Assembly (NCBI GenBank): GCA_030430575.1
Contig: JAUIKF010000022.1
Location: 1-64,000 of the forward strand
Direction: 5' to 3'
Length of the DNA stretch: 64,000 bases
DNA from: Bacteroidia bacterium
Lineage (GTDB): Bacteria; Bacteroidota; Bacteroidia; J057
Shown here: positions 26,515 through 42,508 of the stretch, piece after piece
How the letters are laid out: each line of letters starts with the position of its first letter
How positions within the stretch are numbered: position 1 is the first letter of the stretch
Notes under the pieces: model-generated
Databases searched by the model: none
The model's input: only the letters and a program-made list of their open reading frames with translations
What the model was told of the DNA's origin: nothing
Made by a program: the position numbers and the translations under genes

Positions 26515-28590
26515 CTAATACAACTGCACCTTCTGCACATACTGACCACCTTCAAAGAGCCAGTGAACGAGGTATACCCCTGGAGGTGTGGCCTCCGTCC
26601 TGCGCCAGGTGTGTTTGAATTCTCCCCGCGCCGCTACTTCATGATACACCTGCCCCACCAGCTTGCCGCTGATGTCATATACAGCAATGCTCATCATCCC
26701 AGAACGCGCTAGATCTGCACTGAAGTAAACCAAGTCTTTGGCCGGGTTAGGATGGGGAAGGTTGACCACCCCCCAGTCATAGTCAAATGCTTCATCAATG
26801 GCGACGCCATTGGTACCAGGTATGGTCACCTTGATGATATCTGATTTGGAGCATCCAAAGGTATCTGTCCCTGTAACCATGTAGGTCGTGGTCTGCATAG
26901 GACCTACTATAGGATTCTGAACAGTGTCAGGGGAATTAAAGCCCGTATTAGGCGTCCACTTCCAGTAAACGGCTGTATTGGTGACGACATTGAGTTGAAC
27001 CGTTGTGTTAGGCGGGTTGATCGTCACATCGGGACCCGCCGATACGAGGGGAGGGATGACCACATTCACTGTAATGGTATCTTGCGCTGTACAGCCAGAA
27101 GTGTCGGTAGCTGTGACAAAGTACGTCGTTGAATTTACCCCAAAAAAGGTTGGATTGGCTGTATTGGGATTGGTGAGACCAGAAGTAGGTGACCAGCGAA
27201 TATCGGTACTTGGATCACTAGAGGTTGCATTCAATTGCGCACTGGTACCTACACAGGCATTGACATCTGGTCCCGCTGTGACCGTCCCCGCAGCGCTGAC
27301 GATAATGTTGACTTGCTTTGAGAATTGATGCGTACCAAAAGAATTATTGGTGATCAACGTCACCGTATATGTCCCAGAAGCAGCATACTTATGGATGGGG
27401 TTTCTGGTACTGGCCGACCCTCCGTCCCCAAATGTCCAAAACCAAGTACTAGGAAGGTTTTGGGAGTTGTCGAGGAAACGAATGTTTCCATCACAACTGA
27501 AGGTATCTTCTAACACGAAATCACTGATCGGTGCTGCCGTAGGCGCAGCACACACAGTAGAATTCAGTAAATTGGCTCTCCGGGTAGCATTGGCGAGGAC
27601 AGCCTTCATCCGTGTTTTCTGATCCTGGGTGAAAATATTGAAGCAGGCATCATTCGAATAATCCATGTAGTTCTGCACCATGTCCACAGTGTTACATGAT
27701 ACATGCGTAGACGGGCAGCCATAATTGGGATCATCTGATGCAGGGGTATCCATACAGAAATCATCTATTCCACAACCTCCATCTCCCCAAATGTGGATCA
27801 AGCCCAGCCAGTGACCTACCTCATGGGTGGCTGTACGGCCCAGATGGAATGGAGAACTCACTTGTCCTACTCGGCCAAAATAGACTGGAGCGATTACTAC
27901 GCCATCTGTAGAAGCTCCGCCCCCTCCTCCAATACCTGGAAGGCCAGAACCACTTGGCGGTTGGGCAAATCCCAAAATCCCACCAGTAATAGGGGCGACC
28001 CACATGTTGAGGTACCGCTCTGGGTCCCAGTAGGTCTGGGGTTTGATCTGATTATTGATCTGGTTGATTCGCCATGGCGGTGCAGGAGCACCAATGGAAT
28101 TGCGATCCACGCGGTTAATGCCTAATTCTGGAAGCACATTCCCTGCTGTATCAAAATAAGCCAGACAAAATTCGATTTCTACATCCGCCCCGTCGGGGTG
28201 GTTGTTGAAGCCTGCTGTACCTGCCATGCGGCGATAGTCCTCATTGAGGATATCAATCTGCGAGTGAACTTGAGCCAGAGATATATTGTTTCCTGTCCCC
28301 ACAGCTTCGCCGTTGTGGATGACATGTACAATGACGGGAATCGTCTCGACTACACGGGCTCCAGTCTGCGGCGTCCGCTGTTGCTCGGCGATCTTGTCTT
28401 GAAGCCAAGCTTCAAATTCCTCGCGGGTCTCCATATTGGGGTACTGCTGTCGCCGCATCGCCTCAGACTGCTCCGTCGCGCACCGGATCGTGCCGTCATT
28501 GGGATTTACTTCAAAAGGGGGGATCGTTTGTTGTGCAAGCAAAAATGGCCCTGTAATAAGCAAGAGCGCCAAAAACGTAAAAAGTCTCAT
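26515..28590 (-). CDS. Secreted M43 (pappalysin-type) metalloprotease with PKD, Ig-like repeats and T9SS C-terminal domain
   Basis: A 691-residue exported protease. Signal peptide 1-20 (MRLFTFLALLLITGPFLLAQ), pro-region, M43 catalytic domain with HEVGHWLGLIH (His256, Glu257, His260, His266), acidic calcium-site-like DDFCMDTP and Met-turn NYMDYSND. These are followed by a PKD domain (about 350-430), two Ig-like repeats ending in TTTYMVTGTDTFGC, and a T9SS type A domain (HPNPAKDLVYFS...PGVYLVHWLFEGGQYVQKVQLY). Its catalytic domain is clearly paralogous to that of the giant protease at 1658-7189. It belongs to the M43 family, whose members include cytophagalysin and ulilysin. It forms a tandem with the following subtilase gene. 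Confidence 0.92.
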   Translation of the reverse strand: MRLFTFLALLLITGPFLLAQQTIPPFEVNPNDGTIRCATEQSEAMRRQQYPNMETREEFEAWLQDKIAEQQRTPQTGARVVETIPVIVHVIHNGEAVGTGNNISLAQVHSQIDILNEDYRRMAGTAGFNNHPDGADVEIEFCLAYFDTAGNVLPELGINRVDRNSIGAPAPPWRINQINNQIKPQTYWDPERYLNMWVAPITGGILGFAQPPSGSGLPGIGGGGGASTDGVVIAPVYFGRVGQVSSPFHLGRTATHEVGHWLGLIHIWGDGGCGIDDFCMDTPASDDPNYGCPSTHVSCNTVDMVQNYMDYSNDACFNIFTQDQKTRMKAVLANATRRANLLNSTVCAAPTAAPISDFVLEDTFSCDGNIRFLDNSQNLPSTWFWTFGDGGSASTRNPIHKYAASGTYTVTLITNNSFGTHQFSKQVNIIVSAAGTVTAGPDVNACVGTSAQLNATSSDPSTDIRWSPTSGLTNPNTANPTFFGVNSTTYFVTATDTSGCTAQDTITVNVVIPPLVSAGPDVTINPPNTTVQLNVVTNTAVYWKWTPNTGFNSPDTVQNPIVGPMQTTTYMVTGTDTFGCSKSDIIKVTIPGTNGVAIDEAFDYDWGVVNLPHPNPAKDLVYFSADLARSGMMSIAVYDISGKLVGQVYHEVAARGEFKHTWRRTEATPPGVYLVHWLFEGGQYVQKVQLY

Positions 28591-28671
28591 GTTTAGAATA
28601 GAAATAGTTAGTTAAGTAAAAAGTGTAGCTGTAATATATTTGGATGCTAAAGGGGACAAAAACTTTTACCC

Positions 28672-30759
28672 CTATCGATAAATCGCCATTTTTTGTGCCC
28701 ATCGTTCCCTCCCCATTTCCCAAACAACGATATATATCCCGAAAGGAAGTGTCGCGGGTGCGTCAGATGACACGTTAAATTGGCCTGGGAATATTTCTCC
28801 TGAGAAAATAGACTGAATGCGTTTACCTTCTACTGAATACAAGGAAATATCCATTTCCCCTACTTTATGAACTGTTGCATGTAAGTGCCATACTTGCCGT
28901 TGCTGATCGTAGCGAATCGGTGCCACTGCTACTAGCGAAGAAGCCAAAGCATGTTCTATGGAAATCGTATTTAACACCTTTACCAAGACACTATCTGAAT
29001 GGGTACATCCTTCTACACTTTTTCCTGTCAAAACATACCAGGTCGTACTATCGGGACTGGTTTTGGGATTTAGGATAAAAGGGTTGGGAAATAAATCGTT
29101 TCCTGGGGACCAAGTGTAGTTCAACGCATTTCCACTACCTCCCAAAGTGGCAGAATCCCCTACATTGATCGTCTGGTCAAGGCCTGCGTTTACAAGGGGA
29201 CTGGGTGCCAAAGTGACTTGTAATTGCTGGCTACTAGAATCTCTGCCAAAAGCATTTTCTACCACCAACGAAATCGTATAGCTTCCCGATGCCCCAAAAT
29301 AAAAAATAGGGTCCGGGAGATTGGATTGCTGCCCATGACTGGTGGTCCAACTCCAGGTATCTGGGCAGGCTGTGAGGCTGTCTCTCAGATAAATAGCTGG
29401 CAGCCCCACACTGTCACAGGCGACGGTGTCTGCCATCAGAAAATTGGCATGCGGCGCAGCCGTTTGTTGTAACAGCGCCAATGTCGCCGCAGCATCTATG
29501 CGCCCAGCGCCTAGTCCTCCTGCAGCCGCTGGATTCAGGGCGTCGATATTGACACATCCTGCTTTTAACAAAGTTTCTGCTTCAGATGAAGTAAGACAGG
29601 GATTGGCGGCAAGCATAAGCCCTAGCAAGCCCGAGACGATGGGCGTAGCCTGGGAACTCCCGCTCAGGAGGCTATAGCTAGATTTCAGTGTCACGCTAGG
29701 GACTGTACTGCGAATGCTCAAAGCTGGCGCGCATACGTCCACATGGCGATTGTGGGTACAGATACTGGCTTTTAGGTCATTGGCATCTGTGCCTGCGACA
29801 CTGATGACGTGGGCAAAAGAGGCAGGATACTCATACGTCGTATCGTTGGTGGCGGGGTTGGTATCGCCGGGGCCGTTGCCTGCGGCAGCGACGAGGAGGA
29901 TGTCCAGCTCATGAGCGACTCGCATCAGGGCTTCGCCTGTAGCCAGATACTCTGTCCCGCCAAAGGACATATTGATGATGTCAGCGTGGTTGATGATGGC
30001 GTAGTCTACGGCTCGGAGGGCCGTACTGAAGGGGTAGCTATCACTCCCCCCGATATCTGAAGCCGCCTTGACAGGCATCAGTTGACAGGTAAAGCCGAGA
30101 CTCGCAATGCCTTTGGCATTGTGGGTAGTGGCTGAAGCGCAGCCAGCGACATGACTTCCATGACGGAATGTGCGGTGGATGGGATTGGGGTCATTGTCAT
30201 TGTCGCCGATATCCCAACCCTGCCAGTCGTCGACAAAGCCGTTGCGGTCATTGTCGATGCCGTCATTGGGAATCTCGCCTGGATTCTCCCAAATATTGTC
30301 TGCCAGGTCTTCATGAGTGGTCAATACGCCATTGTCGACAATCGCAATGACGACGTGATCGGCGCCTTGACTCAGGTCCCAGGCTTCGGGGGCACGGACG
30401 ATATTGAGGTGATATAAGGCGGTGCTGTCATAATCATCTGGGACAAAATGGCTGTAGACAAACGGGATTTGCTCTACATACACTACCTCTGGTAGGTGGA
30501 CTAGCTTTTCCACTAATTCCCCTGTAAGGGTAATTTCTCCAAAGGTCAATTCATATATGTCATCGAGTAGCGGATGTTGAGTAATAAATGCAGGAGAAAT
30601 GCGACTTACTTCATACCTTGTGACGAGGTCATCAAGGGCGTCAATAGTCTCCCCTGGTTGAAATTTAAGGTATAGTCTTCCTGGTACATAGGGTTGCTGT
30701 CCCAACAAATTGGCACAACACATAAATCCGATAATTACTAACCAGAAAAACCGTTGCAT
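28672..30759 (-). CDS. Secreted subtilisin-like serine protease (S8) with PKD-type domains and T9SS-like C-terminus
   Basis: A 695-residue exported subtilase. Signal peptide 1-21, inhibitor-like pro-domain (GRLYLKFQPGETIDALDD) to about 110, then the catalytic triad Asp142 (IAIVDNGV), His200 (RHGSHVAG) and Ser369 (LSGSSQATP). An acidic Asn/Asp insert (NDGIDNDRNGFVDDWQGWDIGDNDND, in parts) between Asp and His is typical of Bacteroidota subtilases. A PKD domain, an Ig-like domain (NAGLDQTINVGDSATLGGSG) and a C-terminal beta domain ending WAQKMAIYR follow; the last resembles a T9SS sorting domain, although less canonical. It probably acts with the adjacent M43 protease in extracellular proteolysis. 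Confidence 0.9.
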   Translation of the reverse strand: MQRFFWLVIIGFMCCANLLGQQPYVPGRLYLKFQPGETIDALDDLVTRYEVSRISPAFITQHPLLDDIYELTFGEITLTGELVEKLVHLPEVVYVEQIPFVYSHFVPDDYDSTALYHLNIVRAPEAWDLSQGADHVVIAIVDNGVLTTHEDLADNIWENPGEIPNDGIDNDRNGFVDDWQGWDIGDNDNDPNPIHRTFRHGSHVAGCASATTHNAKGIASLGFTCQLMPVKAASDIGGSDSYPFSTALRAVDYAIINHADIINMSFGGTEYLATGEALMRVAHELDILLVAAAGNGPGDTNPATNDTTYEYPASFAHVISVAGTDANDLKASICTHNRHVDVCAPALSIRSTVPSVTLKSSYSLLSGSSQATPIVSGLLGLMLAANPCLTSSEAETLLKAGCVNIDALNPAAAGGLGAGRIDAAATLALLQQTAAPHANFLMADTVACDSVGLPAIYLRDSLTACPDTWSWTTSHGQQSNLPDPIFYFGASGSYTISLVVENAFGRDSSSQQLQVTLAPSPLVNAGLDQTINVGDSATLGGSGNALNYTWSPGNDLFPNPFILNPKTSPDSTTWYVLTGKSVEGCTHSDSVLVKVLNTISIEHALASSLVAVAPIRYDQQRQVWHLHATVHKVGEMDISLYSVEGKRIQSIFSGEIFPGQFNVSSDAPATLPFGIYIVVWEMGRERWAQKMAIYR

Positions 30760-30968: not shown

Positions 30969-31676
30969 ATGGCAGATCCAATTATCAAGCTTGAGCATCT
31001 TCGTCGGACCTACAAGATGGGTTCAGAAGTCATCAACGCCCTCAATGATGTCTCGCTGGACATTTACCCCAACCAATACCTAGCGATCATGGGGCCATCA
31101 GGCTCTGGTAAGTCTACCCTGATGAATATATTGGGCTGTCTCGACTCTCCTTCCAAAGGGAGGTATTACCTTAATGGAGTAGAGGTGAGCACAATGGGGG
31201 ATGCAGAACTGGCGTACACCCGCAATAAGGAAATTGGGTTTGTCTTTCAGACATTTAACCTGCTCTCGCGGTCGACAGCACTTGAGAATGTGGCGTTGCC
31301 ACTTGTGTATGCAGGGATGAGCAAAAATGCACGCCTGGATCGTGCGGCTGAAGTCCTCGAAAGCGTTGGTCTTGGCGACCGGATGGACCATAAGCCCAAT
31401 GAACTCTCTGGGGGGCAGCGCCAGCGCGTGGCTGTAGGCCGTGCCTTGGTAAATAGCCCTTCCATCATCTTGGCAGATGAGCCGACTGGAAACCTCGACT
31501 CCAAGACTTCATATGAAATCATGGCCCTTTTTGACGATTTGCATGCGGCGGGGAATACGATTATCTTGGTGACACACGAAGAAGATATCGCTCAGTATGC
31601 ACAGACAATTGTGCGCTTGAGAGATGGCGATATCGAAGTCATCGAAACCAATGAAAATCGTCGAGTCACTAAATGA
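30969..31676 (+). CDS. ABC transporter ATP-binding protein (MacB/LolD type)
   Basis: A 235-residue nucleotide-binding protein with Walker [10 protein letters not shown] (42-50), a Q-loop VFQTFNLL, signature [15 protein letters not shown] (about 144-158), Walker [13 protein letters not shown] and H-loop [21 protein letters not shown] at the start and the [10 protein letters not shown] form place it in the MacB/LolD/FtsE-like group that drives macrolide/lipoprotein/peptide export permeases. No permease gene is adjacent, so its partner must be elsewhere. It overlaps the next gene by 4 bp. Confidence 0.9.
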
Positions 31677-32585: not shown

Positions 32586-33701
32586 ATGAACGAATTTGAC
32601 GAAATACGTCCTTATCGTGACCACGAAGTACCGGAAGTGATGGCGCGCTTGATGAGAGAACCGCTCATTTTCAAGTTGATGGATTATTTGTTTCCCGAGC
32701 TGAGTGAGGTAGAATTGATCAAAATGGCGAAGCAAGTCAAAACCATCCGTGACTTGCAAGTCATCTTTTCTCGTCGGGCGATCAAGAACATCACAGCACG
32801 TACCTCAGATGGTATTACCTGTAGCGGATTTGAACATTTTTCCAATACCTCTCAATCCCTCATTGTCTCCAACCATAGGGATATCATCCTCGATTCTGCC
32901 TTGCTTAATGTAGCCCGAATAGACTATGGCTTGCAGACACTGGAATCAGGCACGGGAGATAATTTGATGATGTCGCCAGTCGTTGCAGCGTTGATGTTGC
33001 TAAATCGGACATTTGTCATACACCGTAGCCTGAGTGGCCGCAAGCTAGTCACCTATTCTCAGCGCCTATCTCGCTATATCCGCTATCAGATTACCCAAAA
33101 CAACACCTCCATCTGGATTGCCCAGCGCAATGGTCGCACCAAAGACGGGATCGATCAAACCGATACGGCATTGCTCAAATTATTTAACATGTCAGCGGAT
33201 GATTTTGTAGAAGGGTTTTTGGAATTAAATCTGCTGCCCATGGCCATTTCCTATGAATATGATCCTTGTGATACATGGAAGGCATATGAGCGGTATTTGA
33301 AGGCGACAGGTGGGTATGAAAAAAATAAGAAAGATGATTTCAAAAGTATGATGGCGGGTGTGACTGATTATAAGGGGAAAATGCATATCGCTATCGGTGA
33401 GCCTATCAAGGAGGAGCTATATACATTGGGAGAAATCGTGAATAAAAATGAGCGTTTTCGCGCCTTCGCTGACCTGATGGATCAGCGCATCCATTCCCTC
33501 TACCAAAAGCACCCAGTTCACTATATCGCAGCTGATATTCGGGCGAATACCGCTCAATATGAAGCACATTATTCTGCGGATGAAAAGGCTGCCTTTGAAG
33601 CCTATATCCAGAAGCGGATAGGTCCGCTAGCAGGCGACCAAGATCACATCCGCTCACTATTCTTGGACATCTATGCCAATCCTGTGGCAAAATTATCGTA
33701 A
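32586..33701 (+). CDS. Glycerol-phosphate acyltransferase family protein (PlsC/PlsB-like)
   Basis: A 371-residue acyltransferase. The four family blocks can be read: SNHRDIILDS (catalytic-motif variant in which the Asp falls six residues after His rather than five), NRTFVIHR, WIAQRNGRTKDG and LLPMAISYEY. Such enzymes acylate glycerol-3-phosphate or lysophospholipids at the cytoplasmic face of the inner membrane. It has no transmembrane helix. The gene ends 9 bp before a giant AsmA-like gene, indicating a two-gene operon for envelope lipid synthesis and transport (inference). Confidence 0.78.
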   Translation: MNEFDEIRPYRDHEVPEVMARLMREPLIFKLMDYLFPELSEVELIKMAKQVKTIRDLQVIFSRRAIKNITARTSDGITCSGFEHFSNTSQSLIVSNHRDIILDSALLNVARIDYGLQTLESGTGDNLMMSPVVAALMLLNRTFVIHRSLSGRKLVTYSQRLSRYIRYQITQNNTSIWIAQRNGRTKDGIDQTDTALLKLFNMSADDFVEGFLELNLLPMAISYEYDPCDTWKAYERYLKATGGYEKNKKDDFKSMMAGVTDYKGKMHIAIGEPIKEELYTLGEIVNKNERFRAFADLMDQRIHSLYQKHPVHYIAADIRANTAQYEAHYSADEKAAFEAYIQKRIGPLAGDQDHIRSLFLDIYANPVAKLS

Positions 33702-33710
33702 TATCGATAT

Positions 33711-36700
33711 ATGGCGCTTAGCAAACCTTGGCGACGCGTATTTTGGATAGCTGCTGTTATCCTGTTGATACTATTAAGTGTTCAGGTGTATGCCTTCTTT
33801 TATTTAGGCCCTACCCTGGCAGGCCGCCTCAGTAAGCAGATTCACGAGGCGAGCCAAGGTGTCTATTGGGTTGAAAGTAAAGATGCTAACCTGAACCTGT
33901 TCAACGGGTCACTTGTGCTAAGGGATTTTAGCATGAAGCCCGATACCTCCCGTCACCAACAGCTCTCCCAGGAAGGTAAGGCTACTGCCAACCTCTATCA
34001 TGTCGAGATTCCTCGCCTCAGCATTCAAGGGATGAGTGTATATGATGCACTCAAGACCAAAAAGCTGGACATCACCAGGTTGCAAGTGGAAAGACCAGAG
34101 ATCCAGCTTGTCCACCAGCCTCTCCTAAAACGAGCACCTACCGATAGCTTCCGCATAAAAAACCTCTACTCTCTTACCAATGGGTACCTCACCTCTCTGA
34201 GCATTGCCAGCCTCGAAGTCCGCCACGGTACCTTTCGCTTCAATCCCCAACGCCAGTTCAGCCAAAATGCCTTTGCTGCGCGGGAGATTTCTCTTAAAAT
34301 CAAAAACTTCCAGCTAGACTCTGCGGCGAGCTTTCAAGTAGATAGGTCATTTTATGCAGAAGAAATAGAATTAGGGGTCGACATTCGCAATTATTCTTTT
34401 GTGACACCAGATAGTGCTTATGAAATCCGAATTGGCAATATCGGCTTATCGACGACAAAAAATGAGGCATTTGCGTCCAATATTCATGTAAAACCCAGGT
34501 TTCAGAAATTCGCGACGTACCGATTTGAAGGCAAGTCCATTCCTCCAACGGCAGAACTTGAAGTGCCCAAACTGCTGCTTACAGGCGTAGATTTTGGGGA
34601 AATATATTTTGATCGGGTAGTCAACCTGGATGGGCTAAAGGTCGATCAACCCAGGCTTCGGCTTACGGGTACCCAGAAAGAAAAGCCTTTTGCCACGAAC
34701 CGCCGCCCACCCAGCCTATATGAGCTGTACCCCAAACTTAAACCCTACCTAAAAGGCATTTCTGTAAATGAGGTGGAAGTATCTCAAGGAGAGATTTGGA
34801 AGAAAGCGATGATAGATGACACTTTGCACCAGGCGTCGCTGCAAGGCATAGAAATTTCCCTCCGAAATTTTCAACTCGACTCTATCGCAAAGCAGCGGCT
34901 CTTGCAAGCTGAAGATATACGCCTTGAAGTCAAGAAATATGACTTCCGTGTAGGCGATGATGCCTACCGCATCAATGGCAAGAACCTATGGCTTTCCACC
35001 CAAAGTCAATTTCTCCTCGCAGACAGCCTTCGGCTTATCCCAGGCCCTAATGCCATGCGTGCCAGCCGTGGCAAGCCCCAAGTCTATGAAGCATTTCTCC
35101 CGATGTTTGTGATCGAAGGAGTCGATGCAAGCCGTACCTACTTTGAACGGGTGTTGGATGTAAACAAAATTCACTTAGGGGGGCCTACGTTTAAACTCAC
35201 CAACTATCCGCACGTCGAACGCGAGCAGGTAAGTGAATTGGCTCAAGCAGACTTTTATGACCTGATCTCTTCTTCACTCAATTCACTTCTTGTCAGAGAC
35301 TTGGAGCTGGAGGAAGGGGAGTTCCTATTTAACCTAGACAATGATCGCAGTCGCAATGCCTTTGAAGCAAAGGACATATCTGTCCAGGTGATCAACTTTC
35401 GCCTGGACTCTACTACCCGCAAGCTGGCCCAACAGCCCTTCTACGCTGATGACATCAGCGTTCAGATGAATGTCCAGGACTATTCCATTATGGCCCCCGA
35501 TAGCAACCATCAGATGACCATCGGGAAACTAGGGATTTCTACCCAGGACTCTGTCATCTTCGCTGAAGGGATTTCCGTGCGGCCTACGCCAAGGGCCAGG
35601 GCAATTCCCGATAGCCTCAAGCCAAATCTCTACGAGATGGACGTTCCCAAATTTCAATTGAAGGGCCTCAGTACGTTGGAGCTTTATCTTGAAAAAACAC
35701 TTTCTCTCCAGGAAGTCCGGATAGAACGCCCACTGGTTCGATTTGATACGTATGCTGCTTATCGGAAAGACACGTTCGCTTTTCAACCCGAAAATTTACA
35801 CCAACTTATAGTTGATTACATTTCCATTTTGTCAGTCGATCGATTGGTATTGGAAAATGGGACTTATCATCAAACGATTCACAGCCCTGATACAAGTTTG
35901 GGAATCACCTTGCCAGCCGTCTGGCTGGAACTGACGGAGTTTTGGCTAGACTCGATGACGGTCATGGGACCAGACAACCTTTTATTCGCAAAAGAAATTC
36001 AAGCGAAAGTAAAAGGGATTCAACAAAACCTGGATAGCCTATACGTCTTGCAGATAGGCGAATGGGGGCTGTCAACCCAGGAGCGTACCTTCTACATGAA
36101 TGGGGTAGAGCTCTACTCAGAAGATGAGGATTTCATCCTTGACAATATGTACGAGGCGACTATCCCTCATTTGCGTATCGCGGGGATGGAAGCCTACGAA
36201 GCGATCGTAGACCGCGAGTTAAATGTCGACAGCATTCTCATTCAGCGACCCGAGCTGATGATGACCAATTATCCGGTGGTTCAGAAGGAAAAACTGGACT
36301 CCCTGGCGCAGTCAGATTTGTATAGCTTGATTTCTGGTTACCTGAAGTCTCTTCAGGTAGGGAGCCTCCAAGTGGCAGATGGGAGCTTCAAGTTTCGCGA
36401 TGAAGCAGAAGGGCTAGACCGTGACTTCACGGCAGATGAGCTATCTGTCCAGATCTCCAACTTTCGCCTCGACTCTGCCGCTCAGCGTCAGACAAATAAT
36501 CCTTTCTACGCCGATGATATTGCCGCCAACCTCAATATCAATCATTATCAATTTATCCTACCTGATAGCAGTTATATTTTTCAGGCAGGCCGTATCGGGG
36601 TCTCAACAGGCGGTGCGGGCATTGAGGTGGATAGTATTCGCCTCATTCCCCTAAAAGTTGAAGGGCAAGGAGCGGATGTGTTGATCCCTCGATTGCAATT

Positions 36701-38084
36701 GGCAGGGGTAAATATTCCTGATATTTATTTTGGGAAAACTGCCACCCTCTCATCCATGCGGCTGATTGACCCGAAAGTGAAATTGCTTCAACCCCTTTAT
36801 CAGGAAGGAGATTCTTCCCAGGGGAAGGATATAGCTCAATTGCTCAATCCGCATATTTACCCCTTGATCTCTTCTTTCCTGACATATCTCCATATTGAAG
36901 AAATCGAGGTGCAGGATACCCAAGTAGATGCCATGCTGAGGGATCAAGTCCCGCTTAGCTTGGGAAGCATTAACCTAACATTGAAACACTTCGAACTCAA
37001 GGAAACCTATACCGCAGGAGACCGAAAGTTCTTCCATTCGGAGCATGTAGAACTCAGGGCAAAAGATTGGCGCTTTGGATTGCCTGACAGCATGTATTGG
37101 GTGGAGGTAGATGAAATGGGCTTGATGTCGTGTGAAGACAGTTTTTTTGTGAAAGGGATTTCGCTGATCCCTCGATATGGCATGTACGAATTTGGGCGAG
37201 CGTATGGAAAAGTGACGGATCGGATCGAGATGGAAGTGGACTTAGTGGGAGGAAAGGGCTTGGATATTTGGCGGGCACTAACTGAACAGCGCTTCCGCGC
37301 CTCCCGCTTCCACGTCGACGGCATGGCCTTCGACATCTTTCGGGATAAGAAACTGCCGCCTGACGTTTTCTACCACCGCCGTTTGCCACAGCGTCTTGTG
37401 CGAGAGTTCCCTTATTACATACATGTGGATTCAGCCTTTGTAAACGACGGCAAAGTCACCTATCGAGAACGCGCAGAGGATGGAGATATTCCAGGGGTAG
37501 TCGACCTGACGCATATGTGGGCCACAGTATCCAACATTTCCAATGATTCCCTTTTTCTCAGTCAAAATATAGAAACAGTCATTGATGGTCAAGCACGTAT
37601 CATGAAGTCAGGTAATATGCGGACACGGATACGAATGGTCATTAGCGATACATCGGATACTTTTTCCTATACGGGGATTTTGGGCAAAATGGACTTCACT
37701 GAGTTTAATCCTATGGCCGAGCCCGCGTTAAATATTTCCATTAAAGACGGCCTTGTCAAGAAGGTATTGTTCAATGCCACTGCGAATCGCCATGAAGTGC
37801 GCGGACGCATGCGCTTTTATTATAATGATCTCCGGATCAAGGTCCTCAAGAAAAATAAAGACCGCTCCCGTGGATTTACTTCCTTCTTGGCGAATTCCTT
37901 TGTCGTCCGTGGCGATAACCCCAATAAACGCTTTTTGCGCATTGGCAAAATCTATTATGAACGAGATTCTGGTCGCTCTATCTTCAACTACTGGGTCAAG
38001 GGGCTGCTCAGTGGGGTGAAATCTAGTGTCGGTACAACTAGTAAGCTGGACCGGATCAAGAATCTGTTTAGAATGCCTGAGTAG
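33711..38084 (+). CDS. Giant AsmA-like inner-membrane-anchored repeat protein
   Basis: A 1457-residue protein with one N-terminal membrane helix (about 10-30) and a long periplasmic part. The first block (GPTLAGRLSKQIHEASQGVYW then LNLFNGSLVLRDFSMKPD) is typical of AsmA-like proteins. The body is a tandem array: a header of the form LYSLI..YL.SL.V..LEV..G.F recurs near residues 152, 337, 516, 696, 870, 1050 and, degenerate, 1240, a period of about 180. Each unit continues with ..ISV.I.NF.LDS....FYADDI.V...Y....PDS.Y....G..G.ST. AsmA-like/TamB/YhdP proteins form hydrophobic grooves that move phospholipid across the periplasm. The pairing with an acyltransferase gene supports that role, which is inference here. 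Confidence 0.8.
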   Translation: MALSKPWRRVFWIAAVILLILLSVQVYAFFYLGPTLAGRLSKQIHEASQGVYWVESKDANLNLFNGSLVLRDFSMKPDTSRHQQLSQEGKATANLYHVEIPRLSIQGMSVYDALKTKKLDITRLQVERPEIQLVHQPLLKRAPTDSFRIKNLYSLTNGYLTSLSIASLEVRHGTFRFNPQRQFSQNAFAAREISLKIKNFQLDSAASFQVDRSFYAEEIELGVDIRNYSFVTPDSAYEIRIGNIGLSTTKNEAFASNIHVKPRFQKFATYRFEGKSIPPTAELEVPKLLLTGVDFGEIYFDRVVNLDGLKVDQPRLRLTGTQKEKPFATNRRPPSLYELYPKLKPYLKGISVNEVEVSQGEIWKKAMIDDTLHQASLQGIEISLRNFQLDSIAKQRLLQAEDIRLEVKKYDFRVGDDAYRINGKNLWLSTQSQFLLADSLRLIPGPNAMRASRGKPQVYEAFLPMFVIEGVDASRTYFERVLDVNKIHLGGPTFKLTNYPHVEREQVSELAQADFYDLISSSLNSLLVRDLELEEGEFLFNLDNDRSRNAFEAKDISVQVINFRLDSTTRKLAQQPFYADDISVQMNVQDYSIMAPDSNHQMTIGKLGISTQDSVIFAEGISVRPTPRARAIPDSLKPNLYEMDVPKFQLKGLSTLELYLEKTLSLQEVRIERPLVRFDTYAAYRKDTFAFQPENLHQLIVDYISILSVDRLVLENGTYHQTIHSPDTSLGITLPAVWLELTEFWLDSMTVMGPDNLLFAKEIQAKVKGIQQNLDSLYVLQIGEWGLSTQERTFYMNGVELYSEDEDFILDNMYEATIPHLRIAGMEAYEAIVDRELNVDSILIQRPELMMTNYPVVQKEKLDSLAQSDLYSLISGYLKSLQVGSLQVADGSFKFRDEAEGLDRDFTADELSVQISNFRLDSAAQRQTNNPFYADDIAANLNINHYQFILPDSSYIFQAGRIGVSTGGAGIEVDSIRLIPLKVEGQGADVLIPRLQLAGVNIPDIYFGKTATLSSMRLIDPKVKLLQPLYQEGDSSQGKDIAQLLNPHIYPLISSFLTYLHIEEIEVQDTQVDAMLRDQVPLSLGSINLTLKHFELKETYTAGDRKFFHSEHVELRAKDWRFGLPDSMYWVEVDEMGLMSCEDSFFVKGISLIPRYGMYEFGRAYGKVTDRIEMEVDLVGGKGLDIWRALTEQRFRASRFHVDGMAFDIFRDKKLPPDVFYHRRLPQRLVREFPYYIHVDSAFVNDGKVTYRERAEDGDIPGVVDLTHMWATVSNISNDSLFLSQNIETVIDGQARIMKSGNMRTRIRMVISDTSDTFSYTGILGKMDFTEFNPMAEPALNISIKDGLVKKVLFNATANRHEVRGRMRFYYNDLRIKVLKKNKDRSRGFTSFLANSFVVRGDNPNKRFLRIGKIYYERDSGRSIFNYWVKGLLSGVKSSVGTTSKLDRIKNLFRMPE

Positions 38085-38315: not shown

Positions 38316-38906
38316 ATGTTAACCTCAATCCGCTTGAAGCATTCGGATCAGCAATTGGCGCAGCGCTTGGGCGTGAAAGACGAAGGCGCATTCAAAGCCT
38401 TAGTGGATCGCTTTCAGGAGAAGGTGCTCAATACCTGCTTGGGATTTGTGCCCAATAGAGAAGATGCTGAAGACTTGACCCAGGAGGTTTTTTGGGAAGT
38501 ACATCGGTCGATCGAGCAGTTTCGTGCTGAAGCAAAACTCTCTACCTGGATTTATCGGATAGCGGTAAATAAGTCTCTGGAACATATCCGAAGAAATAAA
38601 CGCCAAAAGCGGCAGAGCCAATTGCAATCCCTGTTTGGGATACGGGATGCTGCGGCTCCACATGCTTCGCGCCTGGATCATCCAGGCCTTAGCCTGGAGA
38701 ACAAGGAAAGAGCAGAAGTGCTCTTTGGCGCCATAGATAAATTGCCTGAAAATCAGCGTATTGCATTTACCCTAGCGAAGGTGGAAGGCCTGAGCTATCA
38801 AGAAATCGTGGAGGTCATGGGCGTGAGTTTGGGCTCGGTAGAATCCTTGGTATTTCGCGCAAGAAAAAAGTTAAAAGAACATCTATACGCATACTATAAG
38901 GAATGA
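38316..38906 (+). CDS. ECF-subfamily RNA polymerase sigma factor
   Basis: A 196-residue ECF (sigma-70 family) factor. Region 2 is at about 25-95 (LVDRFQEKVLNTCLGFVPNREDAEDLTQEVFWEVHRSIEQFR, with KLSTWIYRIAVNKSLEHIRR), and region 4 at about 135-190 (LPENQRIAFTLAKVEGLSYQEIVEVMGVSLGSVESLVFRARKKL). It directs RNA polymerase to a stress or envelope regulon. A small membrane protein gene likely to encode its anti-sigma factor follows, and a Spy-like periplasmic protein comes next, an arrangement typical of envelope stress modules. The start at 38316 has no clear ribosome binding site, as usual in this phylum. Confidence 0.92.
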   Translation: MLTSIRLKHSDQQLAQRLGVKDEGAFKALVDRFQEKVLNTCLGFVPNREDAEDLTQEVFWEVHRSIEQFRAEAKLSTWIYRIAVNKSLEHIRRNKRQKRQSQLQSLFGIRDAAAPHASRLDHPGLSLENKERAEVLFGAIDKLPENQRIAFTLAKVEGLSYQEIVEVMGVSLGSVESLVFRARKKLKEHLYAYYKE

Positions 38907-38967
38907 ATAAAAATTAAAATGAAAGTTAAAATCAAAGTATGAACTGATTTTCAGTGAGTTATAGATG

Positions 38968-38989
38968 AATAACTGAAGAGTTATTTTTT
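38968..38989 (+). terminator. Rho-independent terminator downstream of the ECF sigma gene
   Basis: AATAACT-GAAG-AGTTATT forms a perfect 7-bp stem with a 4-nt loop followed directly by T4. It lies about 60 bp after the sigma factor stop and before the anti-sigma candidate, so that gene may be transcribed partly from its own promoter or by read-through. Confidence 0.5.
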
Positions 38990-39010
38990 CTTCATTCCTA
39001 AGAAGAATTT

Positions 39011-39089
39011 ATGATTGACCAATTATTTATTCTTGATTGACGACTGACAAAATGGAATCAATAATCAATCAATGTATCAATCAATAATT
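39011..39089. repeat. Palindromic spacer repeat, AATCAATAAT family
   Basis: Left arm about 39011-39041 (ATGATTGACC...TTGATTGAC) and right arm about 39055-39089 (AATCAATAATCAATCAATG...). It lies immediately before the anti-sigma candidate start codon (39092), so translation would begin next to the base of the stem. Confidence 0.5.
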
Positions 39090-39091
39090 TT

Positions 39092-39412
39092 ATGGACACA
39101 CCTAAACACATTGACCAGGAGGTAGAAAAGACCTTAGGCGTCTTAGACGAGCTAGAGCGGGTGGAGGGAAATCCCTTTTTGTATAGCCGCTTGGAGGCCA
39201 AGCTGGCCGCTGAAAGCCAGGCTGTCAAGAAGCCCTTTCTGGCACCTGCCCTTCGCTGGGCAGCTATGCTGATTATCTTGATCGTCGCCAATATTTTCAC
39301 CTTTACCCAACTGACGCCTACAGATCCCCAAATGACTGAGCTAGCCGCCCTGGCTAGTGACTATGCATGGGATAGCAGTACACAGTCTTATTATGAAAAT
39401 TGGAGTGAGTAA
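39092..39412 (+). CDS. Small membrane protein, probable anti-sigma factor
   Basis: A 106-residue bitopic protein: soluble acidic N-terminus of about 50 residues (MDTPKHIDQEVEKTLGVLDELERVEGN, in parts), one membrane helix at about 53-74 (RWAAMLIILIVANIFTF) and a short periplasmic tail. It directly follows the ECF sigma gene and has the topology of small anti-sigma factors, although no ZAS zinc motif (HxxxCxxC) is present. The assignment therefore rests on topology and gene order only. Confidence 0.55.
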   Translation: MDTPKHIDQEVEKTLGVLDELERVEGNPFLYSRLEAKLAAESQAVKKPFLAPALRWAAMLIILIVANIFTFTQLTPTDPQMTELAALASDYAWDSSTQSYYENWSE

Positions 39413-39420
39413 AAAAAGAA

Positions 39421-39469
39421 AGACCTCGGAGGCTTTTAACACGATTTGCTGATTAAACCTCCGAGGTCT
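39421..39469. terminator. GACCTCGGAGG hairpin between anti-sigma and Spy-like genes
   Basis: AGACCTCGGAGG (39421-39432) and CCTCCGAGGTCT (39458-39469) form a perfect 12-bp stem. The inner TTTAA/TTAAA can extend it. No T-tract follows on the plus strand, but an A-rich run precedes it, giving T-tract termination on the minus strand and perhaps attenuation on the plus strand. The downstream gene starts 10 bp later. Confidence 0.6.
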
Positions 39470-39479
39470 CCACAAAACT

Positions 39480-39986
39480 ATGAATCACTTTAACCATCAA
39501 CGGAGCAACTGGATCATCGGAATTCTAGTGGTCTTGAACCTAGGGACTCTGTTGGCCATTTGGCTGACGCGAGCGCCAGAACCGGCAAGACCTGATATGC
39601 CACATCGGGTAGATCGCTTTCTGGAAAAGGCGCTAGAACTGACCCCAGAACAAGCCGCGCAATTCGAAGACTTGCGCTCCGGACATCATCAGACCATGCG
39701 CCAGTATTTCGACACTCAGCGCGACAATCGCCAATTGATGCTCAAGAAGTTGACTGCCAGTCCTCCTGACACGGCTGCCGCACATCGCATCGCTGCGCTC
39801 ATCGGCGAACAACAAACAGCGCTTGAAGAGCTGATGATCGGGCACTATTCCCAGCTTCGGCAAGTCTGTACACCCGCTCAGCAAGAGAAGCTTGGGGAGG
39901 TATTTATGAAAGCTCTTATGCGACGGGGACCAGGGGGCAGGCCAGGAGGTGGTCCGCCGGGGAGAGGGCGGAGGAGACACCCTTAG
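39480..39986 (+). CDS. Spy/CpxP-like periplasmic (LTxxQ / heavy-metal-sensor type) protein
   Basis: A 168-residue protein with an N-terminal membrane helix (about 11-29), then a helical domain beginning ALELTPEQAAQFEDLRSGHHQTMRQYF and repeating CTPAQQEKLGEVF, the LTxxQ hallmark of the Spy/CpxP/CnrX family of periplasmic chaperones and metal/stress sensors. The C-terminal tail is a Gly/Pro/Arg-rich low-complexity stretch. Proximity to an ECF sigma factor and anti-sigma suggests an envelope-stress or metal-response module similar in logic to CnrX-CnrY-CnrH, although that parallel is inference. Confidence 0.75.
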   Translation: MNHFNHQRSNWIIGILVVLNLGTLLAIWLTRAPEPARPDMPHRVDRFLEKALELTPEQAAQFEDLRSGHHQTMRQYFDTQRDNRQLMLKKLTASPPDTAAAHRIAALIGEQQTALEELMIGHYSQLRQVCTPAQQEKLGEVFMKALMRRGPGGRPGGGPPGRGRRRHP

Positions 39987-40075: not shown

Positions 40076-40378
40076 ATGAAGGGAGATACAAAGCCTATGA
40101 TTTCAAAACGTGTCTTTTGGGACATTGATTATGAGTCTTTAGACTATGAAAAAGACCAATTTTTTATTATTGATAGAGTGATGAATTATGGCCTTTGGGA
40201 TGATTTTATAGCGATTATGAGGTATTATGGGAAAGAGGTAGTTAAAAAAGAGATTGTCAAATCACCTTACCTCAAAAAAAAGGTACTCAATTTTTTATGT
40301 TTTTATTTTGGGCTTAGTTTAATTGATTTTAAATGTTATTCACAGAGACTGTCACAGGAGCAACACTGGAGCTTTTAA
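40076..40378 (+). CDS. DUF6922 family protein, probable antitoxin of the AbiEii pair
   Basis: A 100-residue protein. RVFWDIDYESLDYEKDQFFIIDRVMNYGLWDDF at the front and RLSQEQHWSF at the end fit the DUF6922 family, which in Bacteroidota regularly precedes nucleotidyltransferase toxins. It overlaps the downstream toxin gene by 46 bp, a tight coupling typical of toxin-antitoxin pairs. It would act as the antitoxin or a DNA-binding regulator. The DNA is markedly AT-rich, so the pair is probably a mobile accessory module. Upstream at about 40033-40060 the AT-rich leader shows no exact -7 box. Confidence 0.7.
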   Translation: MKGDTKPMISKRVFWDIDYESLDYEKDQFFIIDRVMNYGLWDDFIAIMRYYGKEVVKKEIVKSPYLKKKVLNFLCFYFGLSLIDFKCYSQRLSQEQHWSF

Positions 40379-40959
40379 GAGATTTAATGTTAAGACCTGA
40401 ATTGAAACAGTTTGGATTAGTGGGGGGGACAAATCTTTCGTTGAGGTTAGGGCATCGCTTGAGTATTGATTTGGACTTGTTTACCAATGAGCCTTTTGAT
40501 ACAGAACAGGTTTACATTGCACTAGAATCAAATTACTCCAATATTATACAGGCATCTCAAAGTGATTCAATGCTGTTTCTTTATATCAATGATGTGAAGA
40601 TTGATATGGTTTTATTGCCCTACCCTTATTTGAAGCCAGCGGAAGAAATAGATGGAATCCGCCTCGTTTCTATTGAAGATATTGCTGCGATGAAGCTGAG
40701 TGCTATTGCTAGGAGAGGAGTAAAAAAGGATTTTTGGGACATTGCAGAGCTTCTTGATATTTTCAGTATAGAAGAAATGATAGAGCTTTATAAAACGAAA
40801 TATAGCTCTCGCGATATTTTCTATCTTTTAAGATCATTGGTGTATTTTGAAGATGCAGAAGCTCAAAAGGACCCAGATGTGCTTAAAAAAGTGACTTGGA
40901 AGCAAGTAAAAGAGAAGGTGAAAATGGCTGTAAAAATGTATCTAGATGCTCAAGCGTAG
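40333..40959 (+). CDS. AbiEii/AbiGii-type nucleotidyltransferase toxin
   Basis: A 208-residue nucleotidyltransferase. The core signature LVGGTNLSLRLGHRLSIDLDLF (about 35-56, split here as GGTNLSLR and SIDLDLF) supplies the GG/S and D-x-D catalytic residues, and DVKIDMVLLPYPYL gives the third acidic residue. ARRGVKKDFWDIAELLDIFSIEEM is the helical motif typical of AbiEii toxins. In characterised systems such toxins modify RNA, including tRNA 3' ends (MenT), and some confer abortive phage resistance. Start ATG at 40333 lies inside the preceding gene; no closer start preserves the N-terminus. Confidence 0.85.
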   Translation: MLFTETVTGATLELLRDLMLRPELKQFGLVGGTNLSLRLGHRLSIDLDLFTNEPFDTEQVYIALESNYSNIIQASQSDSMLFLYINDVKIDMVLLPYPYLKPAEEIDGIRLVSIEDIAAMKLSAIARRGVKKDFWDIAELLDIFSIEEMIELYKTKYSSRDIFYLLRSLVYFEDAEAQKDPDVLKKVTWKQVKEKVKMAVKMYLDAQA

Positions 40960-40972
40960 AAAATTTTTCCAC

Positions 40973-42508
40973 ATGAAATTCCTCTCCTCCTTTCTCCTCC
41001 TTACCCTCATTTTTTCGCTCCCTACGATTGCTCAACAGCCCAATATCTTGCTGTATATCGTCGATGACGTCGGCGTAGACCCTATCCCCAATTATGCTGC
41101 GGGCAGTCAAAAAGCCCACATGCCAACCCTGGAAGCCCTGATGGATTCAGGACTTACCCTTGACAATGCATGGTCCAGTCCGCTTTGCTCACCGAGCCGT
41201 GCAAACATTTTGACAGGGAAATATGGCTTCCGGACCAATGTGCTGAGCCCAACCACATTTAGCCAATTAGATACTGCAGAAACTACCCTACATACTTATC
41301 TGGACCAAGTTTCCAATGGGATGTATAGCAGTAGTTTAATAGGTAAATGGCATTTGTCAGGACAAATGAATCCCGATAAAAACTATCCCGCAAAATGTGG
41401 GATTCCCCATTACGCTGGGAACTTGGGCGGAGCGGTTCAGGACTTTTGGGACTGGGATTTAGCCGTAAATGGGACGGTAACGCCTGAGGTGAGTTATCTT
41501 ACCTCCACCTATACGGATCTGGCTATTAATTGGATCAACCAACAAAACCAGCCCTGGTTCTGCTGGCTAGCCCATAACTCACCGCATGAACCGCTACATG
41601 TGCCGCCAGCACATATGCATGCGCAAGGCAATCTGCCCGCCGATCAGGATTCCATAGATGCGAATCCTTTCCCCTATTTTCAAGCGATGCTGGAAAGTAC
41701 AGATTATGAGTTGGGGCGGCTGCTTGATAGCTTGCCGCAAGCTGTGCGAGACAACACAGTAGTCATATTCATCGGCGACAATGGGACGCCTCGAAATGTA
41801 TTGCAAAGGCCTTATGCTGGCAAACAGTCGAAGTCTAGCCTCTATCAAGGAGGTATCCATGTGCCGATGGTCATAGCTGGACCTGGGATCACGAGGCAGG
41901 GGGAGAGAGAGGATGCTTTGATCAATTTTACGGACCTGTTTACTACAATAGTCGAATTGGCAGGATATCCTTTGCGTGAATATCACGATAGCAAGAGCTT
42001 TTGGCCGCTGCTCACTCAGGCAGGACCGAGTATCAGAAAGTGTGCTTATACGGAGAAGATAACAGACAATAACTCTGTCGCTGGATGGACGACTCGTGAC
42101 GAGACCTATAAATTGATTCGCTTTAGCGATGGGGTAGATGAGTTTTATGATTTGATCGCTGATCCATATGAAAAGAATAACCTGCTTTCAGGAACCCTCA
42201 CCCCCCAAGAACAAATGGCTTTTGACAACCTGGTGATCTGCAATCCCCAAGACGCTACTTCCATAGATGATTTACAGGCTGAAACCTCTTTGTTTCACCT
42301 TTACCCCAACCCTACTCGTTCAGCACTGTTTATTTCCCTCTCTACCAGGGCTCCTCAACCCTTCCAAATCATTACTCTGACAGGAAAAACCGTAATGAAA
42401 GGCCAGTTGGCGTTTGGAGAAAATCGTGTAGCGATTGAGCATCTACCCAATGGAATCTACGCGGTACAATTGGGAACAGAAGTGAAGCGATTTGTGGTAA
42501 ATGACTAA
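40973..42508 (+). CDS. Secreted sulfatase with T9SS C-terminal domain
   Basis: A 511-residue exported sulfatase. Signal peptide MKFLSSFLLLTLIFSLPTIAQ, metal ligands in YIVDDVGVD (about 30), and the formylglycine site C72-S-P-S-R in SPLCSPSRANILTGKYG, so a Cys-type sulfatase that needs a maturase. TVVIFIGDNGTPRNV supplies further metal ligands. The last 75 residues (LYPNPTRSALFISL...PNGIYAVQLGTEVKRFVVND) are a T9SS type A sorting domain. It probably desulfates an algal or animal polysaccharide outside the cell. The start at 40973 is taken because the upstream in-frame ATG at 40946 lies inside the toxin gene and spoils the signal peptide. Confidence 0.9.
   Translation: MKFLSSFLLLTLIFSLPTIAQQPNILLYIVDDVGVDPIPNYAAGSQKAHMPTLEALMDSGLTLDNAWSSPLCSPSRANILTGKYGFRTNVLSPTTFSQLDTAETTLHTYLDQVSNGMYSSSLIGKWHLSGQMNPDKNYPAKCGIPHYAGNLGGAVQDFWDWDLAVNGTVTPEVSYLTSTYTDLAINWINQQNQPWFCWLAHNSPHEPLHVPPAHMHAQGNLPADQDSIDANPFPYFQAMLESTDYELGRLLDSLPQAVRDNTVVIFIGDNGTPRNVLQRPYAGKQSKSSLYQGGIHVPMVIAGPGITRQGEREDALINFTDLFTTIVELAGYPLREYHDSKSFWPLLTQAGPSIRKCAYTEKITDNNSVAGWTTRDETYKLIRFSDGVDEFYDLIADPYEKNNLLSGTLTPQEQMAFDNLVICNPQDATSIDDLQAETSLFHLYPNPTRSALFISLSTRAPQPFQIITLTGKTVMKGQLAFGENRVAIEHLPNGIYAVQLGTEVKRFVVND

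Follow-up and report, generated by a model that had tools for sequence, protein, structure and literature searches.

The window considered here is a 64,000-nucleotide stretch of DNA from a Bacteroidia bacterium (contig JAUIKF010000022.1, positions 1 to 64,000). We focused on two adjacent open reading frames on its forward strand. The first (32586-33701) encodes a 371-residue protein assigned to the acyltransferase superfamily by a search with PF01553. The second (33711-38084) encodes a 1457-residue AsmA-like protein, a candidate long bridge between membranes, recognised from its reading frame, a match to DUF748, internal repeats and a predicted fold. Both frames lie where an earlier, sequence-only reading of this DNA had placed them. 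The AsmA-like gene starts 9 bp after the acyltransferase gene ends.

The 1457-residue protein is repetitive. Its best 40-residue ungapped self-diagonal scores 113, compared with a maximum of 41 among 20 shuffled versions. Diagonals fall at offsets of 173-187 residues and their multiples, with 355, 718 and 363 leading. With a hidden Markov model (HMM) of the module, half a repeat is detected on the N-terminal side, followed by six complete ones, each 175-187 residues long. Held out of the HMM in turn, the six modules scored 39-135 bits, whereas none of the 200 shuffles made of each exceeded 6.5. Headers of the repeats, read from the sequence, occur at residues 160, 347, 523, 703, 878, 1057 and 1233. 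The last of these opens the C-terminal unit, which has a similar header but is unmatched by the module HMM. Hence, the seven repeats of about 180 residues in the sequence-only reading are better described as seven periods. The periodicity and headers stand, and the layout becomes a half module, six full modules and a C-terminal unit.

Hydropathy analysis detects one hydrophobic segment, near residues 10-30. This agrees with the membrane anchor previously proposed, and its place at the N-terminus is the arrangement expected of the AsmA superfamily; E. coli AsmA proteins also have an N-terminal anchor. Drawn from the sequence itself, the repeats and the anchor can be regarded as demonstrated. 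A two-residue amphipathic pattern of hydrophobicity is also present (0.274, against 0.203 for shuffles with a standard deviation of 0.010). Along the forward strand, the anchor occupies residues 7-30 (33729-33800; 19-residue hydropathy peak 2.48). The half module, equivalent to the second half of a repeat, follows at residues 51-156 (33861-34178; 42.7 bits with the module HMM). Modules 1 to 5 cover residues 160-346 (34188-34748), 347-522 (34749-35276), 523-702 (35277-35816), 703-877 (35817-36341) and 878-1056 (36342-36878). All five are supported by the HMM and the held-out test, and modules 3 and 4 also by a structure model. Module 6 (residues 1057-1232; 36879-37406) is supported by the HMM and by trees. 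Across the 12 long proteins described below, it alone among the modules groups by position throughout. The C-terminal unit (residues 1233-1457; 37407-38081) is conserved across the family, according to a profile built from 21 proteins.

For structure prediction, the window protein supplied three two-module blocks that do not overlap, and these were aligned with the corresponding blocks of one relative, giving six unchanged rows. A three-module alignment of shifted frames was dropped because copies paired with themselves, out of register. The AlphaFold2 model of modules 3-4 has a mean predicted local distance difference test score (pLDDT) of 72.9 and a predicted template modelling score (pTM) of 0.67. 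Each module contains about eight to eleven strands with short helices between. We compared this model with 350,542 PDB chains using Foldseek. The top two rows are Vps13 chains, with expectation values (E) of 3.2e-5 (probability 1.00) and 1.5e-4. Rows 4 to 7 (E 1.6e-3 to 5.5e-3) include LPD-3 (1.6e-3), TamAB (3.5e-3) and Atg2 (4.4e-3). In VIA-align, LPD-3 gave Z 9.0 over 276 residues at 6.2 Å, spanning both modules. Vps13 gave Z 8.1, a TamAB chain Z 7.7 and the TamB crystal structure Z 6.5 (125 residues, 4.0 Å), so TamB shares the beta-groove match. The best fold matches are thus VPS13, ATG2 and LPD-3, which we take to be the BLTP1 protein. The model and these matches favour a beta-groove over separate globular domains. 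Hence, the bridge fold foreseen from sequence is upheld as a prediction for two modules. In modules 3-4 the predicted groove is well supported; along the remaining modules it is extrapolated from these two.

We consider it likely that the protein is a long AsmA-superfamily bridge belonging to a Bacteroidota family, with a middle made of cassettes between conserved ends, and that it conducts lipids. A single N-terminal helix would serve as its inner-membrane anchor. The seven periods, each of about 180 residues, would stack into one continuous groove reaching into the periplasm, and lipids would slide along this groove towards the outer membrane. The ends, namely the half module, the last module and the C-terminal unit, are conserved, and the cassette array between them changes mostly by whole modules. 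From the superfamily, we infer that the groove is continuous over all seven periods, that the protein is periplasmic and spans this compartment, and that phospholipid is the cargo. Transport of phospholipid to the outer membrane is accordingly named here as a candidate function.

Several observations weigh against this proposal. The lipid side, being argued by analogy, is one. In the Foldseek search three rows have E under 0.001, and the third of them is P47, an unrelated beta-rich protein; CETP, also beta-rich, appears at row 9. No TM-score exceeds 0.26 by model length or 0.32 by target, which is low. In VIA-align, Z under 8 possibly marks a common arrangement, and the beta-barrels of porins reach Z 6-7 at a root mean square deviation of about 17 Å. 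An AlphaFold model of residues 1-1200 from a two-row alignment had pLDDT 33.9 and was discarded. At the level of families, Pfam searched to E 1 yields DUF748 (PF05359) and nothing else for this protein. Its E of 1.8e-12 over three stretches speaks for the proposal, but its 46.6 bits lie below the curated cut-off of 50. DUF748 has seven matches in the same genome, none over the curated cut-off. TamB (C114) scores 35.2 bits and two other frames 32.7 and 28.8, compared with 22 for the best stretch of the window protein. Hence, DUF748 is not a specific label. An HMM of the short forms of the family gave one weak match among the six E. coli AsmA proteins (AsmA, YicH, YhjG, YhdP, YdbH and TamB), to YicH at 15.1 bits and E 0.0012. 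YhjG and AsmA were at chance level, and none of 14 controls was listed. Finally, most members of the family are probably too short to span the periplasm alone.

NCBIfam matched neither the AsmA-like protein nor the acyltransferase at E up to 1. A search of solved structures with the AsmA-like sequence returned nothing significant (best E 0.15). Comparison by hhalign with single E. coli sequences found nothing for targets or for controls, and so does not discriminate. No 178-residue period rose above shuffles in the six E. coli AsmA proteins or in the organism's own TamB. The self-similarity that E. coli TamB does show is weaker, and its offsets are different (498 and 113 residues). The same genome also encodes a 1021-residue protein (L114:4649-7714) with a strong internal repeat at an offset of 202 residues (score 213), near a DUF748-matching gene on C2.

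Proteins with DUF748 occur in Pseudomonas aeruginosa as a long and a very short member, PA4735 (1,088 residues) and PA2708 (361 residues), as in the window family. This likeness rests on a profile match that is below cut-off and extends to the organism's own TamB. According to PMC10900882, cells that lack TamB, YhdP and YdbH depend on PA4735 for growth, a point in favour of the bridge proposal, whereas PA2708 is considered too short to cross the periplasm. The eukaryotic proteins resemble the window protein by fold only; they act at cytoplasmic contact sites, whereas the window protein would be periplasmic.

The protein might instead resemble TamB in role, as a scaffold that spans the periplasm and aids insertion of outer-membrane proteins while carrying no lipid. 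The TamAB complex is among the fold matches of the two-module model. In one genome (G054), a gene for a predicted outer-membrane beta-barrel lies directly upstream of the long form, at the Pfam cut-off (27 bits). Flavobacterium johnsoniae has seven AsmA-like proteins; attempts to delete its tamL and tamB did not succeed, and a part for TamL in outer-membrane lipid transport was considered most unlikely (PMC12045153). However, a separate TamB (PF04357) occurs in 23/23 genomes tested, including that of the window (C114, about 1511 residues), and PF04357 does not match the window protein even at E 1. Thirteen of the 23 genomes hold a long form, and there TamB has a gene of its own, whose open frame measures 1491-1553 residues. 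Two of the genomes (G250 and G281) have a second, longer TamB-type frame besides. No Omp85-type protein was found among the ten neighbour proteins to which that scan was limited. We think a TamB-like role improbable.

Returning to the proposed lipid bridge, we surveyed its family using the profile of the C-terminal unit. This detects members in 73 of 296 genomes of the class (E <= 1e-5) and 116 of 392 genomes of the phylum (E <= 1e-20), two samples that overlap. For lengths, taken as open frames, we pooled 90 members from the class search with 92 further places from the phylum search, giving 182. A 295-residue frame (G152) and a 187-residue frame at a contig end (G285) were dropped from the class search. 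A further 26 rows, weaker at E 1.3e-14 or worse, were left out as well; they were second stretches of counted frames or separate frames of 359-446 residues.

Members range from 400 to 1489 residues. There are 136 under 680 residues, 11 at 680-800, 15 at 800-1000, 2 at 1000-1200, 6 at 1200-1400 and 12 above 1400. The 12 longest fall at 1409-1489 residues, and none of the 182 is longer. Lengths cluster loosely at steps of 178 residues. For the 46 members of at least 680 residues, phase at this period gives R 0.43 with a nominal p of 2e-4, a value that common ancestry makes too small. Two lengths, 1027 and 1178 residues, do not fit this spacing. An end-to-end alignment is possible for twelve proteins of 1407-1479 residues that are 15-55% identical; with the boundaries of the window protein carried through this alignment, their modules measure 159-187 residues. 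The module HMM, which does not depend on the alignment, counts six full repeats and a half in 11 of the 12, some stretches scoring only 1-8 bits. It finds a half repeat and five in the twelfth (G227). A thirteenth long form (G002) is split across two contig ends, whose overlap of 115 residues at 99% implies about 1433 residues. Short and long forms occur together in six genomes (G112, G140, G247, G250, G281 and G294). Self-diagonals barely exceed shuffles in the long or mid-length relatives from G054, G247, G271 and G072, and the HMM recovers only part of the expected modules in mid-length members from G055, G271, G072 and G089. Hence, the module number of those relatives is taken from length. 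Module number, which the sequence-only reading had proposed to compare, does differ between relatives, by HMM counts and over a range of about two to seven periods.

How did module number change? With profiles of three lineages, module 6 of every other lineage was found at the same position in 15/15 comparisons. Modules 1-5 were at the same position in 15/75, with 12.5 expected by chance. Modules 1, 3 and 5 of the window lineage form one group, with support of 0.92 in one analysis and one change in another. A further tree groups them at 87/75, with module 5 of G005 outside. Scored against each other, these modules reach 111-130 bits. The highest such score in another lineage is 54, although three lineages in this comparison are represented by one sequence each, and their scores are lower for that reason. 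These patterns suggest that, in the window lineage, two-module blocks were duplicated or homogenised between fixed ends. VPS13 offers a parallel: it grew by duplicating central units between conserved ends, according to PMC7613979. No report of internal cassette duplication in bacterial AsmA proteins was found in the literature searched, which excluded most subscription papers.

The long class requires five changes on the tree of C-terminal units. Two versions of this tree were made, with the cut G002 fragment counted as mid-length in one and omitted from the other. A single clade of long C-terminal units was not rejected (approximately unbiased test, p 0.187). Nor was it rejected that module 3 is held together by position (p 0.072 with 12 proteins, p 0.17 with 7) or that module 1 is (p 0.44). 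Hence, convergence is treated here as hypothetical. Independent origin of the seven-period forms, as an established claim, was set aside given the single-origin result.

Alternatively, length may never have been under selection, and repeat number would simply record neutral gains and losses of modules by duplication and deletion, passed on by descent. To this we give somewhat less than an even chance. The predominance of short members fits, as do the off-grid lengths. With one long ancestor not rejected by the tree test, the long proteins may simply have inherited their common length. TamB-type frames of up to 1792 residues in the same organisms indicate that 1489 residues is no hard ceiling. 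Conversely, the narrow range of the 12 longest members, with nothing above it, persists despite identities down to 15% among long proteins. A molecular ruler, the idea raised in the sequence-only reading, is plausible but unproven. In its fuller form, separate lineages would have rebuilt the middle by different duplications, two-module blocks in that of the window, and reached the same seven periods, near TamB length, with the periplasm setting the span. Short two-period forms would then be partners that bridge jointly or would work at one membrane. We hold this version to be rather unlikely.

The sequence-only reading had coupled the AsmA-like gene to the acyltransferase gene as a candidate operon. 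If the two formed a true unit, newly made lipid might be fed to the groove. The 9 bp gap is consistent with this, as is the same gene order in a congener (G001), with a homologue of a LolD/MacB-type ATP-binding cassette (ABC) ATPase upstream in both. However, matches to the acyltransferase occur in 20/100 genomes, and an AsmA-like gene adjoins it in 2/21 loci, those of the window and G001, of one genus. G002, G003, G005 and G084 have both genes, but either more than 100 kb separates them or they are found on separate contigs. Hence, we take the pair as genus-level synteny, and the coupling is not supported. A true two-gene unit seems very doubtful to us; the acyltransferase is probably a neighbour of the bridge and not its partner. 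Scans for promoters (14, against 13.2 for shuffles) and terminators (8, against 7.6) were no better than shuffles.

The label of glycerol-phosphate acyltransferase was likewise too strong. Judged from its sequence, the 371-residue protein is a putative enzyme of the acyltransferase superfamily; its PF01553 score is 19 bits against a cut-off of 23. All 14 acyltransferases scanned match PF01553 at E up to 0.1. In PlsB and other GPAT enzymes the catalytic motif has H-x4-D spacing. The window protein has H-x5-D (H97-R-D-I-I-L-D103; 32874-32894). This spacing, singled out previously, is real. In an alignment of 14 proteins, the window's included, from 14 of the 21 loci, H97, R98, D99, I100, L102 and D103 are invariant (14/14). 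Hence, H-x5-D is the state of the family and no oddity of this copy. The family profile aligns weakly with GPAT1 (8e4y; E 0.042), matching H and D. In this weak alignment the motif D of GPAT1 lies opposite the second D of the family, with a one-residue insertion inside the family motif.

Neighbours of the long forms differ across lineages. Those in common either are restricted to closely related sets, one made up of four genomes from family f21 and the other of the window with G001, or belong to common families such as ABC ATPases. The ABC ATPase in the window (30969-31676, forward strand), of LolD/MacB type, scores below the cut-off of each of 25 NCBIfam models shown, and we do not claim it as part of a system with the acyltransferase or the bridge. 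In G077 (L048:5911-10683), a family member is followed directly by an ABC-F protein, not an export ATPase; this protein is above the NCBIfam cut-off for ribosomal-protection-like ABC-F. Just downstream of the AsmA-like gene, 38316-39986 encodes an extracytoplasmic function (ECF) sigma factor, a 106-residue protein and a Metal_resist/LTXXQ (Spy-like) protein. The small protein has a hydrophobic stretch and is anti-sigma-like by position only. Together these genes resemble a cassette for envelope stress. The long form of G005 likewise has an ECF sigma homologue nearby. Further downstream are a DUF6922 gene and an AbiEii nucleotidyltransferase gene of the type IV toxin-antitoxin family, overlapping by 46 bp (40076-40959), a sulfatase with a Por secretion tail (40946-42508) and a 962-residue TPR-CHAT protein (43776-46664). 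Upstream, 26515-30759 holds adjoining genes of different families, for an M43 metalloprotease (PKD domain, Por secretion tail) and an S8 subtilase (weak PKD match).

The AsmA superfamily is known, and the cassette architecture appears new among bacterial AsmA proteins in the literature searched. How bridge-like lipid carriers acquire their length is an open question; PMC7613979 notes that the relation of contact width to the number of domains in VPS13 still awaits study. The interest of the family lies in its natural series of lengths more than in any acyltransferase operon. One bacterial family supplies about two to seven near-equal cassettes, which makes the length question directly testable, in a phylum amenable to deletions and module swaps. 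It would also add a candidate lipid route for Bacteroidota, where TamL has been deemed most likely not involved in lipid transport (PMC12045153).

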